Positions 4,460 to 11,968 of a DNA stretch of 64,000 nucleotides are shown one piece after another. The first letter of the stretch is position 1; each line of letters starts with the position of its first letter. The DNA is taken from assembly GCA_036323355.1 (NCBI GenBank), contig AP028876.1:620001-684000 (forward strand), written 5' to 3'. Position numbers and translations under genes: made by a program. The DNA is from Gottschalkiaceae bacterium SANA (GTDB taxonomy: Bacteria > Bacillota > Clostridia > Tissierellales > GPF-1). Below the pieces are notes generated by a model. That model did no database searches. It was not told where the DNA came from and saw only the letters and a list, made by a program, of their open reading frames with translations.

Positions 4460-5272
4460 ATGCAGTGGTTTTCAGAATTATCACCAATTATTCAAGCTCT
4501 TTTCGGTACCTTATTTACCTATGCGCTAACCGCGCTTGGCGCGGCCATGGTATTTTTCTTTGTTACAATTAAAAAAAGAACATTAGATGGAATGCTAGGG
4601 TTTGCAGCGGGGGTTATGATCGCAGCTAGCTTTTGGTCCTTATTGGCACCTGCCATTGATTTAGCGGAAGCCATTGGGCAGAATGCCGTTGGTACTGCAA
4701 CTGCAGGTTTCTTGACAGGGGGATTATTCCTATATCTGGTGGATAAGTTTTTGCCCCACCTCCATTTGGATGTAGAAGGGCATGAACATCGAGAAGGGGT
4801 GAAAAGCAGTTGGCAGCGGAGTTTACTTTTAGTTTTAGCCATTACTATTCATAATATTCCTGAAGGACTTGCTGTTGGTGTTGCATTTGGTGCTTTGGGT
4901 TCAGATTACCCAATTGCTACCTTGGGTGGTGCGATTTCTTTGGCCATCGGAATTGGTATTCAAAATTTTCCAGAGGGCGCTGCCGTTTCAATTCCTCTGC
5001 GAAGGGAAGGTTTTTCAAGAAAGAAAGCCTTTATGTATGGACAATTTTCTGGCATGGTGGAACCGATTGCCGGTGTAATGGGCGCATTTTTGGTTTTGTC
5101 GATGAAGGCTGTTTTGCCATTTGCTCTGGCATTCGCCGCTGGGGCAATGATCTATGTTGTGGCTGAAGAATTGATTCCAGAGTCTCATTTTGAACGGAAC
5201 GGTCATATAGCAACTTGGGGTGTTATGGTTGGATTTGCAGTCATGATGTTTTTAGATGTTGCTTTAGGTTAA
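4460..5272 (+). CDS. ZIP family divalent metal transporter
   Basis: This 270-residue protein has about eight membrane helices and resembles the GufA/ZupT branch of ZIP zinc and iron transporters, which import divalent metals. The fingerprint is [14 protein letters not shown] in the fourth helix and [13 protein letters not shown] in the fifth. Both carry the metal-coordinating His/Asn/Pro/Glu residues. A His-rich patch ([11 protein letters not shown], near 95-105) lies in the loop before them, as is usual in ZIPs. AAGGAGGAG precedes the ATG. The gene stands alone between a terminator and the glp region, and I see no metal-responsive operator. Confidence 0.93.
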
Positions 5273-5395: not shown

Positions 5396-5968
5396 ATGAG
5401 AAACAACCATCTATTTTTTGATAAAATTGAAATGAATCCAATCATCGCAGCAATCAACAATCATGACATGATTGAGGAGGCAATTGCTTCACCTTGCGAA
5501 ATTATATTTTTATTGAAAGGGAATATCATGAATTTATCGGAGATATCCAAGCGGTTGAAGGATTCTGGTAAATTGGTATTTGTTCATATGGATTTGATGG
5601 AGGGCCTGACCAAGGAGTCAGTTGCTTTGGAGTACGTGTCAAAGACCTGCCATCTTGACGGAATTATCACCACGAGAACCAGCCTGTTAAAAAAGGCCAA
5701 GGAATTGAATTTATTTACGATTCAACGGATGTTTCTCTTAGACTCCTTGTCCTTGGAGAGAGGGATTCATTCTGTAAAGCATATTCGTCCCGATGCGGTA
5801 GAAATTTTGCCGGGAATCGTTCCAAAAATGACCAAGTTTTTAAAACAGGAATTGAATGTCCCGATTATAACGGGAGGTTTAATCAAGGATAAGGAAGATG
5901 TAATTGAAAGTTTGCAGGCGGGTGCAGTAGGCATATCAACAAGCCGCAAGGAAATTTGGTATTTGTAG
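5396..5968 (+). CDS. glpP: Glycerol-3-phosphate-responsive antiterminator GlpP
   Basis: GlpP binds glycerol-3-phosphate and then the leader RNA of glp operons, letting polymerase pass a leader terminator. The 190-residue product has the GlpP pattern: an N-terminal NPIIAAI segment, LKGNI, FVHMDLMEG, DGIITTR, and the phosphate-binding end IITGGLIKDKEDV..GAVGISTS. I prefer the ATG at 5396, giving the usual family length, although AGAAGGAG is 12-13 bases away. An in-frame GTG at 5387 is the alternative. Its expected target, a terminator in the glpK leader, lies just downstream, which supports the assignment. Confidence 0.92.
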   Translation: MRNNHLFFDKIEMNPIIAAINNHDMIEEAIASPCEIIFLLKGNIMNLSEISKRLKDSGKLVFVHMDLMEGLTKESVALEYVSKTCHLDGIITTRTSLLKKAKELNLFTIQRMFLLDSLSLERGIHSVKHIRPDAVEILPGIVPKMTKFLKQELNVPIITGGLIKDKEDVIESLQAGAVGISTSRKEIWYL

Positions 5969-6053: not shown

Positions 6054-6082
6054 TTTACATAGATCCGAAAAAATGGTAGTAT
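6054..6082 (+). promoter_or_regulatory. glpK promoter with overlapping cre-like site
   Basis: TTTACA (6054-6059) and TAGTAT (6077-6082) are spaced 17 bp. The sequence GAAAAACGTTTACA (6046-6059) overlaps the -35 and matches the catabolite-responsive element pattern TGNAANCGNNNNCA except in its first two bases. A second similar core, AGAAAACGTTTGCT, lies at 6176-6189. CcpA control is inferred only. Confidence 0.55.
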
Positions 6083-6118
6083 AAAAATAGAGTTGATAGT
6101 GATGGAGACGATGGAGAT

Positions 6119-6166
6119 CACACGGGAAGCAGCCTATGCAATAGGTCTGTTTGCGTGTGTTTTTTT
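6119..6166 (+). promoter_or_regulatory. glpK leader terminator, probable GlpP antitermination target
   Basis: Inside the leader, CACACG (6119-6124) pairs with CGTGTG (6154-6159). CAGCCTAT (6130-6137) pairs with ATAGG-CTG (6141-6149, one bulged T), and a T-run follows. This intrinsic terminator lies between the promoter and the glpK start. In Bacillus subtilis, GlpP prevents termination at an equivalent glpD leader; the neighbouring glpP gene makes the same logic likely here. Confidence 0.8.
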
Positions 6167-6191
6167 ACGTCTTGAAGAAAACGTTTGCTAA

Positions 6192-7751
<1,560 letters not shown>

Positions 7752-7760
7752 GCCTTTTCC

Positions 7761-7776
7761 TCCGCTTCGGCGGAGA
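7761..7776 (+). other. UUCG-loop hairpin after glpK
   Basis: CTCCGC-TTCG-GCGGAG forms a very stable tetraloop hairpin 9 bases after the glpK stop. No T-run follows, so it may protect or process the mRNA rather than end it. Confidence 0.6.
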
Positions 7777-7950: not shown

Positions 7951-8778
7951 ATGACATTATTTATGATTTTAGCCGCATTCGGTGGTGGCGTTTTTGGTGC
8001 ATTGATCGGTGCTTTACCAGCATTTATCTTTGCTGGCTTTACAGGACTTATTGGTGTTGGTCTAGCAATTGCTGGAGTTGATTATGATTGGTTTGGAACA
8101 ATAACCTTTGGTGTTTTGTTTGGTCCACATATTGCCTTTGCAGGCGGCGCAGCAGCAGCTGCTTTTGCGGCAAACAAGAAAAAAGTATTGGAAAACGGAG
8201 CGGATATCCTGACTCCAATGAACAAATTTGCCGATCCTTCGATCTTAATCGTTGGTGGTATCTTTGGTATTTACGGCGCGTTGATTAATTACTTGCTATC
8301 AGGCATTTGGAGTGTACCTACTGATACTGTTGCCTTGGCTGTTTTCCTTTCAGGCGTGACGGCTCGTTTGGTATTTGGTTCATCAGGTTTGACTGGTAAT
8401 AAAGTGGATGGCAAATCAAAAATGCCAAGTGGAAAATCGCTTGTTTATGACGTTGTTTTGGGTGTTTCTTTGGGCGCAGTAATTGGTTATGTTTCAATCT
8501 CGACAGGTGTAGCTGTTATCGGTTTCGTTATCTCAGCTGCAACATTGATTTTTGCACAAGCAGGTTGGGATGCACCAGGAACTCACCATATTACCTTGTT
8601 GGCAGGTGTTGCAGGCGTAGCATCTGGAAGTATTTGGATGGCGATGGTCTTTGCAACAATCGCAGCAATTCTAGGCGACCTAGGTGGAACTTTATTGAAT
8701 TCAGATTGTGATTCACATATTGACCCACCAGCATTTGCAATCTTTATTACAACTACTTTGGTTCTGTTGATCTTCTAA
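7951..8778 (+). CDS. Unrecognised multi-pass membrane protein in the glp cluster
   Basis: I do not recognise a named family. The 275-residue protein is almost entirely hydrophobic and glycine/alanine rich, with about nine membrane segments (roughly 3-23, 25-42, 47-73, 97-118, 124-143, 166-185, 187-204, 213-249, 258-275). Two similar motifs, PHIAFAGG (59-66) and HHITLLAG (212-219), fall at equivalent places in the two halves, hinting at an internally duplicated channel or carrier. No aquaporin NPA motif is present. AATGGAGGG precedes the ATG. It sits between glpK and the glycerol-3-phosphate dehydrogenase genes, so a role in glycerol or glycerol-3-phosphate uptake is inferred from position only. 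Confidence 0.9.
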   Translation: MTLFMILAAFGGGVFGALIGALPAFIFAGFTGLIGVGLAIAGVDYDWFGTITFGVLFGPHIAFAGGAAAAAFAANKKKVLENGADILTPMNKFADPSILIVGGIFGIYGALINYLLSGIWSVPTDTVALAVFLSGVTARLVFGSSGLTGNKVDGKSKMPSGKSLVYDVVLGVSLGAVIGYVSISTGVAVIGFVISAATLIFAQAGWDAPGTHHITLLAGVAGVASGSIWMAMVFATIAAILGDLGGTLLNSDCDSHIDPPAFAIFITTTLVLLIF

Positions 8779-8823
8779 TTCGAAGTGAAGATGGGTAATT
8801 AAATATTGCCAGGATAAATGGAG

Positions 8824-8863
8824 AAGGTCACAGGGGTCGTAATTGGTCCACTGTGACCTTTTT
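8824..8863 (+). terminator. Stem-loop with T-run between the membrane protein and the dehydrogenase
   Basis: AAGGTCACAG (8824-8833) pairs perfectly with CTGTGACCTT (8851-8860), followed by TTT. With the next ribosome site only about 5 bases on, it may act as an attenuator, possibly also under GlpP control. Confidence 0.75.
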
Positions 8864-8883
8864 ACGTAAAGGAGGTTTTCGGA

Positions 8884-10335
8884 ATGTATGATGTTGCCAT
8901 TATCGGCGCAGGCGTCATTGGTACCGGAATTGCACGAGAACTGATGCGGTATCAGTTGAAGGTTGTTATCTTGGAAAAGGAAAATGATGTAGCGGATGGA
9001 ACCACCAAGGCCAATAGTGCGATTGTTCATGCGGGTTATGATGCACCTTTTGGGTCTAATAAAGGTCGATTCAATGTAGAGGGAAATGCCATGTATGGCC
9101 AAGTTTGCAAGGAGCTAGATGTACATTTTAAACAAATTGGTTCCCTGGTATTGGCCTTTGACGAGGAAGATCGACCAACCTTGCAAGAGTTATTGGAAAA
9201 TGGGAAAAGATTAGGTGTTCCAGGTCTTGAAATTATCGAACCGGATCGAATTCGTGAAATTGAACCCAATGTTAGCCAGAAAGTCGTGGCAGCGCTATGG
9301 GCACCGACGGCAGGAATTGTTGGTCCGTGGGAACTAGCAATTTCCTATGCAGAAAATGCCATGGATAATGGTGCAGAGTTGCGCTTGAATACTGAAGTGA
9401 CAGGGATTACGAAAAAGGAAAACAAATTTCATTTGATGACTTCGACAGGAGAAGTAGAAGCAAGACTGGTTGTTAATGCTGCAGGGATTCATGCGGATGA
9501 TATCTACAACATGGTTGCTCAATCGGAATTCACGATTAATCCAAGAAGGGGCGAATATTTTCTTCTGGACAATGAAGTCAGTGACCTAGTCAATACAGTT
9601 GTCTTTCAATGTCCAACAAAGATGGGCAAAGGCGTTTTGGTATCGCCGACGGTAGATGGCAATATTATCGTAGGACCCAACGCAGAGGACGTCCAAACAA
9701 AGGATGAGATTAATACAACAGCTGACGGATTGGATTTTATTCGTCAAAAAGCCAAATTAACCATAGAAGAGTTGCCGTTTCACATGAATATTACCAATTT
9801 TTCGGGCTTGCGTGCAGAACCCTCTACGGGCGATTTTATTATAGAGGAATCGAAACAGGTAGCGGGATTTATTAATGTGGCGGGAATCAAGTCGCCGGGT
9901 TTGTCTTCAGCACCTGCTATTGCAGTTTATGTGGCAGAAACGATTTGTGCGGGAATCTTGGGATCTCATGCGAAAAGGAACCCGGCCTTCAATCCGAAAA
10001 CCCGTAAGAAACTCAGATTTAAGGATTTAAGTGATGAAAAAAAAGCGGATCTGATACGCGTGGAACCTTCCTTTGCACGGATCATTTGTCGCTGTGAAAC
10101 GATAACAGAAGGAGAAATTGTAGACGCGATCCATAGAAACGCTGGAGCACGAACAATTAATGGTGTTAAGCGGCGATGCCGACCGGGCGCTGGTCGTTGT
10201 CAAGGCGGTTTCTGCGGTCCTCGGGTTGTTGAAATTTTGGCAAGAGAGTTGAAGATTAGTCCGATGGAAGTAGAACTGGAAGGAAAAGATTCCCATATTC
10301 TCGTTGGAGAAACTAAAGGGGGTGCCGACGAATGA
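8884..10335 (+). CDS. GlpA-like glycerol-3-phosphate dehydrogenase, FAD-dependent, with C-terminal [2Fe-2S] BFD-like domain
   Basis: It is expected to oxidise glycerol-3-phosphate to dihydroxyacetone phosphate. The 483-residue protein starts with an FAD-binding dinucleotide fold (DVAIIGAGVIGTGIARELMR) and a DAO-type oxidoreductase domain to about residue 370. It ends in a cysteine-rich domain (IICRCETITEGE, then RRCRPGAGRCQGGFCGPR) like the bacterioferritin-associated ferredoxin domain of GlpA. AAAGGAGG precedes the ATG. It overlaps the next gene by 4 bases (ATGA), indicating translational coupling. Together with the next two genes it probably makes an anaerobic dehydrogenase that passes electrons onwards. 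Confidence 0.9.
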   Translation: MYDVAIIGAGVIGTGIARELMRYQLKVVILEKENDVADGTTKANSAIVHAGYDAPFGSNKGRFNVEGNAMYGQVCKELDVHFKQIGSLVLAFDEEDRPTLQELLENGKRLGVPGLEIIEPDRIREIEPNVSQKVVAALWAPTAGIVGPWELAISYAENAMDNGAELRLNTEVTGITKKENKFHLMTSTGEVEARLVVNAAGIHADDIYNMVAQSEFTINPRRGEYFLLDNEVSDLVNTVVFQCPTKMGKGVLVSPTVDGNIIVGPNAEDVQTKDEINTTADGLDFIRQKAKLTIEELPFHMNITNFSGLRAEPSTGDFIIEESKQVAGFINVAGIKSPGLSSAPAIAVYVAETICAGILGSHAKRNPAFNPKTRKKLRFKDLSDEKKADLIRVEPSFARIICRCETITEGEIVDAIHRNAGARTINGVKRRCRPGAGRCQGGFCGPRVVEILARELKISPMEVELEGKDSHILVGETKGGADE

Positions 10336-11591
10336 AAGCATATGATTTGATCGTGGTAGGCGGTGGTCCTGCTGGACTCGCGGCAGCGGTAGAAGCTAAA
10401 AAAGAGGGTGTCGACAAGGTTCTGGTTTTAGAAAGAGACCGTGAATTGGGTGGTATTCTGCAACAATGCATTCATAACGGATTTGGTCTGCACATCTTCA
10501 AGGAGGAGTTGACAGGTCCGGAATATGCTGAGCGTTTTATTGATGAATTGAAGGAAATGGGCATTGAGTATCGCCTAGATACCATGGTATTGGATATCAG
10601 TGATGAGCGGATTATTCATGTGATCAGCAAGGCGGAAGGCTTTGTAACCTTGGTTGCCAAGGCTGTGATTTTGGCCATGGGTTGTCGGGAACGAACACGT
10701 GGGGCACTGGCTATTCCAGGATATCGGCCAGCTGGTGTCTTTACGGCAGGTACGGCGCAGCGATATTTGAATATGGAAGGATATATGGTTGGCAAGAAGG
10801 TTTTGATTCTGGGCTCTGGTGATATTGGATTGATTATGGCTCGACGCATGACTCTAGAAGGTGCAAAGGTATTGGGGTGTGTGGAATTGATGCCTTTTTC
10901 TGGCGGTCTGACTCGAAATATTGTGCAATGTCTCGATGACTATGACATTCCCTTGATGTTGAGCCATACGGTAACAGATATTCAAGGAAAAGACCGTGTA
11001 CAAGGTGTAACGGTGATGAAGGTGGATGAAAATCGCCAACCGATTCCGGGAACGGAAATTCAGTTCGATGTGGATACCCTTTTGTTGTCTGTTGGATTGA
11101 TTCCAGAAAATGAATTGTCGAAGGGTGCTGGGGTGCAATTGGATATGAAAACCCGTGGCGCCATTGTCAATGAGTCTATGGAAACCTCTGTGCCAGGGAT
11201 TTTCGCCTGCGGAAATGTTTTGCATGTGCATGATTTGGTGGACTGGGTGACAGATGAATCGCGGCGAGCGGGCAAGTTCGCAGCGAAGTATATTGCGAAC
11301 CCTGGGGGACAAAAGGAAGAGGCGATTGAAACGATACCGGGTCAAGGCGTAGGATATATTGTCCCGCAAAGGATACGTCCATCACAAGTTGACCAAGTTT
11401 TGGAACTTTTTATGCGGGTTCGAGATATCTACGTGGGACAAACGGTTGTGATTCGTGTAGACGGAAAAGAAGTGCAGGCAAAAAGACGAGGGCATATGGC
11501 TCCAGGCGAGATGGAACGAGTGAAATTGCCGGTTTCATTGTTTAATGGACCTGGGGTGAAAAAAATCACCGTTGATGTGGAAAGCCGGTAA
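10332..11591 (+). CDS. NAD(P)/FAD-dependent oxidoreductase, partner of the GlpA-like protein
   Basis: This 419-residue flavoprotein has an FAD-binding motif (DLIVVGGGPAGLAAAVEA) and a second nucleotide-binding motif (KVLILGSGDIGLIMARRM, near 155). It also has LGGILQQCIHNGFG, found in oxidoreductases that accompany dehydrogenases with BFD-type domains. It resembles the small alpha subunits of amino acid dehydrogenases and takes the place of GlpB. It is probably the electron-accepting subunit, perhaps coupling to NAD(P). The start overlaps the previous stop and the DUF1667 gene follows 11 bases later, so the three proteins are likely made in similar amounts. The true electron acceptor is unknown. 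Confidence 0.85.
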   Translation: MKAYDLIVVGGGPAGLAAAVEAKKEGVDKVLVLERDRELGGILQQCIHNGFGLHIFKEELTGPEYAERFIDELKEMGIEYRLDTMVLDISDERIIHVISKAEGFVTLVAKAVILAMGCRERTRGALAIPGYRPAGVFTAGTAQRYLNMEGYMVGKKVLILGSGDIGLIMARRMTLEGAKVLGCVELMPFSGGLTRNIVQCLDDYDIPLMLSHTVTDIQGKDRVQGVTVMKVDENRQPIPGTEIQFDVDTLLLSVGLIPENELSKGAGVQLDMKTRGAIVNESMETSVPGIFACGNVLHVHDLVDWVTDESRRAGKFAAKYIANPGGQKEEAIETIPGQGVGYIVPQRIRPSQVDQVLELFMRVRDIYVGQTVVIRVDGKEVQAKRRGHMAPGEMERVKLPVSLFNGPGVKKITVDVESR

Positions 11592-11602
11592 GGAGGATTG
11601 AG

Positions 11603-11968
11603 ATGGAAGATAGAAAAATGGTTTGTATCAGTTGTCCAATCGGTTGTCGGTTAACGGTGACCGAGAGTAATGGAGAATACGCAGTAGAAGGGAATCAATG
11701 CAAGCGTGGAGAAGCCTATGGAATCAAAGAAATGACAGATCCGACGCGGGTTGTGCCGACAACGGTTAAGATCCGAGGCGCTAGGCTCAGGCGATTGCCA
11801 GTAAAGACTCATATCCCTTTGCCAAAACCATTGATTTTTGATGCGATGAAGTTGATTAATGAGGTTGAGGTGGAAGCACCGATAAAAGTAGGTGCAATAG
11901 TGATAAAAAACATTCTTGATACAGGTGTGAATATTGTTGCGACAAGAAGTATGGAACGAACGGAATAG
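11603..11968 (+). CDS. DUF1667 domain protein, probable iron-sulfur subunit of the glycerol-3-phosphate dehydrogenase
   Basis: The 121-residue protein begins with four cysteines (residues 8, 11, 15 and 33, in VCISCPIGC and GNQCKRG). The CxxCxxxC spacing resembles an iron-sulfur cluster site. The rest is the conserved DUF1667 part with TTVKIRGARLRRLPVKT. Ribosome site AAGGAGG precedes the ATG. DUF1667 genes are commonly found beside GlpA-like dehydrogenases and this flavoprotein family in anaerobes. The likely role is electron transfer within the complex, in place of GlpC. That role is inferred from context and cysteines. Confidence 0.85.
   Translation: MEDRKMVCISCPIGCRLTVTESNGEYAVEGNQCKRGEAYGIKEMTDPTRVVPTTVKIRGARLRRLPVKTHIPLPKPLIFDAMKLINEVEVEAPIKVGAIVIKNILDTGVNIVATRSMERTE

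Follow-up and report, generated by a model that had tools for sequence, protein, structure and literature searches.

A predicted glycerol and diol facilitator, unrelated to GlpF by sequence, encoded beside glpK in a clostridial glp operon

The glycerol entry route of this clostridial organism is probably a membrane protein, hereafter X, that is encoded beside glpK, is unrelated to GlpF by sequence and is predicted to act as a passive facilitator for glycerol and related diols. The two-halved, polytopic protein would let glycerol cross the membrane down its gradient, and GlpK would then trap the entered glycerol as glycerol-3-phosphate. Relatives of X would also admit 1,2-propanediol and, probably, further small polyols. 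We infer transport by X, glycerol as its substrate, and a passive, channel-like mechanism rather than that of a coupled carrier. The idea itself was published in 2011, and the X of the window (the whole 64,000-nucleotide stretch of DNA analysed here) is a new member of the family predicted then. As far as the literature was searched, what is new here comprises an internal repeat, a predicted fold resembling that of urea transporters, repeated moves between glp and propanediol operons, a broader census that takes in microcompartment loci, and an either/or count of X and GlpF-type genes beside glpK. A sequence-only reading of this DNA had suggested a non-homologous replacement of GlpF beside glpK, and the analysis supports this as the best available reading of a predicted function.

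The X gene (7951..8778; this and the other annotated features of the glp region lie on the plus strand) is intact, begins with ATG and encodes a predicted membrane protein of 275 residues, 29% of which are Gly or Ala. Its placement between glpK and the genes for glycerol-3-phosphate dehydrogenase is as first described. The gene order is glpP, a leader hairpin, glpK, X, a second hairpin with a U-run, and a dehydrogenase set of three genes. glpP (5399..5968; Pfam PF04309) encodes a glycerol-3-phosphate-responsive antiterminator. The glycerol kinase gene glpK (6258..7751) is assigned by its Pfam FGGY kinase match and a score above the TIGR01311 cut-off, and its reading frame has an alternative opening from a TTG at 6228. 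The dehydrogenase set, assigned by Pfam, consists of an FAD-dependent glycerol-3-phosphate dehydrogenase-type protein with a BFD [2Fe-2S] domain (8884..10335), a pyridine-nucleotide/FAD oxidoreductase (10332..11591) and a DUF1667 protein (11603..11968). The same glp order is found in the sister genomes G001 and G002, where X is 75-76% identical. Just upstream of glpP, at window positions 4460-5272, lies a gene for a ZIP-family metal transporter (PF02535).

Two candidate regulatory hairpins with U-runs frame glpK and X. The first (6103..6175; z −4.4) precedes glpK as a candidate GlpP target, and the second (about 8821-8864; z −3.95) lies between X and the dehydrogenase as a candidate second leader or terminator. 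Both are conserved in G001, and a simple terminator scan of the region listed neither. Because of the second hairpin, the dehydrogenases may have a separate leader, possibly another one controlled by GlpP, by analogy with Bacillus subtilis glpD, which has a GlpP-controlled leader. The placement of X under the glp leader, as first described, agrees with the conserved hairpin upstream of glpK. A stem-loop without a U-run is located 3′ of glpK, near 7760-7776 (z −1.5). The promoter-like site upstream of glpK (6054..6082) is a consensus match, and since such sites number two in the region versus 7.0 in shuffles, it is weak when taken alone. A CcpA-type site pattern gave eight matches versus 4.35 expected (13 of 100 shuffles equalled this count), with none in the glpK leader, and was dropped.

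Sequence searches assign X to no known family, in keeping with its earlier description as unrecognised. Neither Pfam nor NCBIfam contains a match to the window protein at E ≤ 1, and 15 relatives yield none beyond isolated weak ones. Tmemb_14 (0.0035) and DUF5698 (0.0051) each appeared in one of the 16 members scanned and were treated as chance, and with nothing of note among these 16 the assignment of X to a known Pfam or NCBIfam family was rejected. Searches of PDB sequences with X members gave best E values of 0.78 and 1.9 and no relative. X resembles GlpF and PduF, of the MIP family (PF00230), in its genomic position, next to glpK or within propanediol operons, and in its inferred job. In contrast, neither the window protein nor the 15 relatives match PF00230 at E ≤ 1, the window translation contains no NPA motifs, and GlpF (1fx8) appears in the Foldseek list of the window model at E 2.0 with a TM-score of 0.15; homology to GlpF by sequence was rejected. 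The same 16 proteins have no match at E ≤ 1 to the urea transporter family (PF03253) or to the Pfam family of Amt ammonium transporters. One urea transporter protein compared with the X family profile scored 1.4%, which gives no sequence-level link; urea transporters were above the cut-off just once among 197 actinobacterial genomes, too few for a profile of their own. Homology to an unrelated transporter, which had been named as evidence that would count against the proposal, was thus not detected by sequence.

Judged from its sequence profiles, X is built of two homologous halves. When the profile of residues 1-150 is compared with that of residues 151-275, residues 58-141 align to 211-274 with 93% probability (E 3.5e-7 in a single comparison). 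With matched columns only, 7-141 align to 169-274 with 92% probability. The half-versus-half score is 43-45; none of 60 column shuffles exceeds 20.6, and reversed profiles give approximately 16. The resulting repeats correspond to window positions 8122..8373 (residues 58-141, GPHIAFAGG ... TDTVA) and 8581..8772 (residues 211-274, THHITLLAG ... HIDPPA). Two matching motifs, PHIAFAGG starting at residue 59 and HHITLLAG starting at residue 212, had been taken as signs of a duplication, and they prove to be part of this genuine internal repeat.

The repeat alignment places H60 on H213 and D125 on D258. Across a 67-row alignment of X proteins, G20, G54, P59, H212, H213, D258 and P260 are invariant, and the columns conserved at 90% or more include H60, D125, H256 and P259. 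The conserved H60/H213 and D125/D258 pairs are likely functional positions.

An AlphaFold2 model of the window protein, built from the same 67 rows, has a mean pLDDT of 96.5 and a pTM of 0.92; this first fold alignment includes 66 of the 80 named loci described below. The model contains 13 helical elements, nine of which have at least 14 residues, matching the nine or so helices first proposed. A Foldseek search of the PDB with this model returned no match at E ≤ 0.001. After realignment of the top 1000 Foldseek chains, urea transporters hold ranks 1-11 (Z 7.4-8.2, 153-178 aligned residues, rmsd 4.2-5.0), followed at rank 12 by the ferrichrome importer FhuCDB (Z 7.1) and then mostly by Amt/Rh proteins (Z 5.1-6.4). 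A model of a haloarchaeal member, built from 27 haloarchaeal and actinobacterial rows (pLDDT 85.1), likewise places urea transporters at ranks 1-12 (Z 7.3-7.7, 175-202 aligned, rmsd 4.5-6.4), with unrelated proteins at Z 6.8 and below (several at 6.0-6.8) and Amt/Rh proteins at 4.4-5.7. The two models are not fully independent, because 20 of these 27 rows are common to the first alignment.

The predicted fold of X thus resembles that of urea transporters (SLC14/UT), which have two homologous halves, as X does, and mediate channel-like passage of small neutral solutes. X differs from them in having no PF03253 match and in an operon context of polyols, and the Z values are just 7-8. For a membrane protein made of helices these values are moderate, and our claim is accordingly one of resemblance to urea transporters and not of membership among them; a Z near 8 may reflect no more than a common arrangement. 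Amt/Rh channels, which are frequent lower in both structural lists and fall below some unrelated proteins, differ from X by these lower scores, by the lack of a sequence match and by a different context.

These structural matches bear on whether X is instead a coupled importer of glycerol and diols, such as a proton symporter, which we consider unlikely but the most serious of the alternatives. The His and Asp residues at the pseudo-symmetric positions H60/H213 and D125/D258, which are invariant or almost so, could carry protons, and a paralogue whose gene is flanked by those for a glycerate kinase and a sugar-diacid regulator suggests charged substrates for some members. However, the nearest structural matches, the urea transporters, are passive, and active uptake of glycerol is needless when GlpK traps it.

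Genomic neighbourhoods provide further grounds for favouring a polyol facilitator. A scan of one genome per species yielded at least 125 confirmed relatives of X, and the named loci are the best 80 of these, such that close relatives are over-represented. The family extends over at least six bacterial phyla (Bacillota, Actinomycetota, Spirochaetota, Bacteroidota, Acidobacteriota and Synergistota) and the haloarchaea. Neighbours were called by tblastn with reference neighbours, the flanks being shorter for loci at contig ends. Among the best 80 of at least 125 loci, glpK lies in the flanks of 27 (within 600 bp in 26 and at 5.2 kb in one); one of the 27 is from a sister genome of the window's. 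Another 25 of these 80 are diol-type microcompartment loci, a class defined by genes for a microcompartment, diol dehydratase reactivase, propionaldehyde dehydrogenase or glycyl-radical dehydratase. glpK and microcompartment genes occur together in none of the 80, and 28 have neither. A MIP gene is present in the flanks of one of the best 80 loci, and no such gene (PduF-type) was found in the flanks of the 25 microcompartment loci among them.

By eye, several of the 28 loci with neither type of gene look polyol-like, including actinomycete loci with sugar kinases, an RpiB-like isomerase and a HAD phosphatase. Five actinomycete loci (L092, L096, L098, L108 and L110) have a DeoR-type regulator or RpiB-like isomerase, a NagD-like phosphatase and sugar kinases, and resemble loci for tetritol or pentitol catabolism. 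A Bacteroidota locus carries an alcohol dehydrogenase, an aldolase and a kinase, also by eye. Others, for instance standalone copies in Acetobacterium and Halanaerobium, have no clear polyol link. The family is also present in the propanediol microcompartment operon of an Acetobacterium woodii record (L060).

The same neighbourhoods speak to the idea that X, instead of being a transporter, anchors glycerol-3-phosphate dehydrogenase in the membrane, regulates it or assists its electron transfer. This we regard as very improbable. X does adjoin dehydrogenase genes in the window, and glpA-type genes are near X in most of the haloarchaeal loci among the best 80 of at least 125, but by the neighbour criteria used here such a dehydrogenase is seen in the flanks of none of the 25 microcompartment loci in that set, and an architecture of nine long helices in two repeats resembles those of channels and carriers.

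In a quick maximum-likelihood tree of 90 rows with SH-aLRT support, in which some long branches are uncertain, the glpK label changes nine times, at least five of these changes being forced by well-supported (starred) branches. The labels nonetheless cluster far more than in shuffles. The window protein and its sister group with propanediol-operon proteins from Anaerosalibacter, Maledivibacter, Anaeromonas, Neobacillus, Robertmurraya and Geosporobacter (support 85, not starred), and this group also holds one glpK-linked Vallitalea protein. The label changes and this grouping indicate that related proteins moved between glycerol and propanediol operons. The presence of near relatives in both kinds of operon, in turn, is our strongest argument that the substrate is a small polyol shared by the two pathways.

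We then compared the occurrence of X with that of MIP genes. A MIP search of the window's whole genome (3.49 Mb in one contig, 97.5% complete) gave no match and was positive in 8 of 14 control genomes; MIP is likewise absent from G001 and G002. The lack of GlpF first noticed in the window thus extends to the entire genome. X is present in all three genomes of the window's family and in 11 of the 291 genomes of its class, in which MIP is above cut-off in 75 and glpK in 126, with five or fewer glpK candidates scored for many genomes, so that glpK copies are possibly undercounted. Within the class, MIP occurs in 2 of 10 glpK genomes that have X and in 41 of 116 without it, which is not a significant difference (one-sided p 0.27). 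Neither X nor MIP is found in 75 of the 126 glpK genomes; an uptake protein is therefore not always needed. At the level of single loci, MIP lies within 5 kb of 19 of at least 143 glpK copies in the class and X within 5 kb of two (three at 8 kb), and no copy has both. Diol dehydratase occurs in 21 genomes of the class, with X within 15 kb in four, MIP in one and both in none. Of the 11 X genomes, 6 also have a diol dehydratase, a co-occurrence with p 2e-5 without correction for relatedness.

A second comparison used the genomes of 50 X loci, hand-picked from the best 80 of at least 125 for glpK or microcompartment context and later classed as 25 glpK-type, 21 microcompartment-type and four other. 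MIP is present in 13 of the 50: 2 of 25, 10 of 21 and 1 of 4, respectively. The contrast between the first two types has a p value of 0.005 and, without haloarchaea, of 0.41, and thus rests on one clade. It fits a division in which X serves propanediol and a separate GlpF serves glycerol in microcompartment genomes. The expectation that X sits beside glpK mainly where glpF is missing is accordingly borne out by the 2 of 25 glpK-type genomes with MIP, but not by the exclusion count for the class. Usual co-occurrence with GlpF had been named as evidence against the proposal; X and MIP do coexist in some genomes, including the 10 microcompartment-type and two glpK-type genomes above.

X is also associated with glpK in haloarchaea. 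Patterns of the window's family retrieved 17 haloarchaeal loci (tblastn E 7e-29 to 1e-23), all 17 of them beside glpK, among the best 80 of at least 125. A census of 145 genomes from the class of a Natrialba asiatica genome found X in 103, glpK above its curated cut-off in 116, and both in 100 (Fisher p 1e-14, with relatedness not corrected). X lies within 300 bp of 99 of the 128 glpK copies above the cut-off in these genomes and MIP at three, with no copy adjoining both; genome G463 pairs one of its two glpK copies with X and the other with MIP. Seven of the 145 genomes carry MIP, and in three of them X occurs as well. X is missing from 16 of the 116 glpK genomes; three of these have MIP and 13 have no MIP either, which speaks against a strict requirement. 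Together with the 27 glpK-linked loci among the best 80 of at least 125, the 99 of 128 haloarchaeal copies reveal a strong link to glpK, the lack of which would have counted against the proposal.

It is also conceivable, but quite improbable in our estimation, that X moves another metabolite of these pathways, for instance an aldehyde, dihydroxyacetone or some end product, and that glycerol enters by simple diffusion or another carrier. X and MIP are both missing from many glpK genomes, and the family also occurs in loci without glpK among the best 80 of at least 125. Conversely, what glp operons and the B12-dependent and glycyl-radical diol pathways have in common is the entering polyol, their products being different, and X holds the glpK-adjacent slot that MIP has at three haloarchaeal glpK copies, never together with it. 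A facilitator of polyol entry remains the reading we prefer.

The window's genome encodes additional members of the family. One paralogue (G000:C1:2265786-2266670; L021:7667-8686) has a C-terminal extension, adjoins genes for a glycerate kinase (PF02595) and a sugar-diacid regulator (PF05651), and by eye is also near an alpha/beta hydrolase; it is a possible glycerate permease. In the sister genome G002, the glycerate-kinase-linked paralogue (G002:C17:66408-67285; L024) is interrupted by stop codons. A second paralogue (G000:C1:2291835-2292698; L022:8683-9714) is adjoined by a short-chain dehydrogenase gene, with an FGGY kinase a few genes off and large upstream open reading frames that by eye include a glycosidase. 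The genome also contains a B12-dependent diol dehydratase (PF02286; G000:C1:2865034-2866686; L127) in what appears by eye to be a microcompartment locus for propanediol; X and MIP are both absent from its vicinity, and the X of the glp operon may also serve this locus. A second glycerol kinase gene (G000:C1:696576-698042; L126:6529-8055) has, by eye, the gene of another GlpP-like protein upstream of it, and no X or MIP adjoins it; its nearest recognisable sugar transporter, also by eye, is a PTS component about 7 kb on.

The haloarchaeal branch of the family has a history in print. Anderson et al. 2011 (PMC3102087), in the portions available, predict a glycerol transporter for the haloarchaeal family and its bacterial homologues, note that the latter lie beside glycerol or propanediol genes, and describe a MIP in place of the membrane protein in H. 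mukohataei. Their prediction is repeated for Natrinema in the corresponding passage of PMC3402447, and Haloquadratum HQ1732A is described in an excerpt of PMC5496347 as co-transcribed with glpK and as having a possible role in glycerol uptake. The window protein shares homology and operon logic with the glpK-adjacent haloarchaeal proteins (rrnAC0550, NJ7G_1712 and HQ1732A) and differs in being bacterial and in belonging to a GlpP-type clostridial glp operon; gene position and taxon lead us to infer that its family is that of rrnAC0550. Our literature search, outside which Sherwood 2009, Rawls 2011 and Williams 2017 lay, found no experimental glycerol transport for the family. A 2025 study of glycerol use by archaea (PMC11962113) reports, in its accessible part, that fewer Archaea have GlpF than have glycerol kinase, and it suggests alternative transporters such as MFS proteins. 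For propanediol utilization, the available text of PMC7593272, which deals with the A. woodii cluster, names PduF for Salmonella only, and the available portions of three microcompartment papers (PMC4207490, PMC6620236 and PMC8149966) name no X-like transporter.

More broadly, and with somewhat less than even confidence, we suggest that X represents a second family of polyol channels, one that is independent of MIP and has a fold like that of urea transporters; it would admit glycerol and 1,2-propanediol in bacteria of several phyla (with paralogues perhaps for glycerate or tetritols) and would be the main glycerol entry in haloarchaea. Glycerol is a key nutrient of hypersaline waters, and if this proposal is true, X would be its main way into these organisms. 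The family lacks noteworthy matches in Pfam and NCBIfam among the 16 members scanned, and together with a confident structural model and a clear guess at the substrate this makes the proposal directly testable; its confirmation would correct many annotations.
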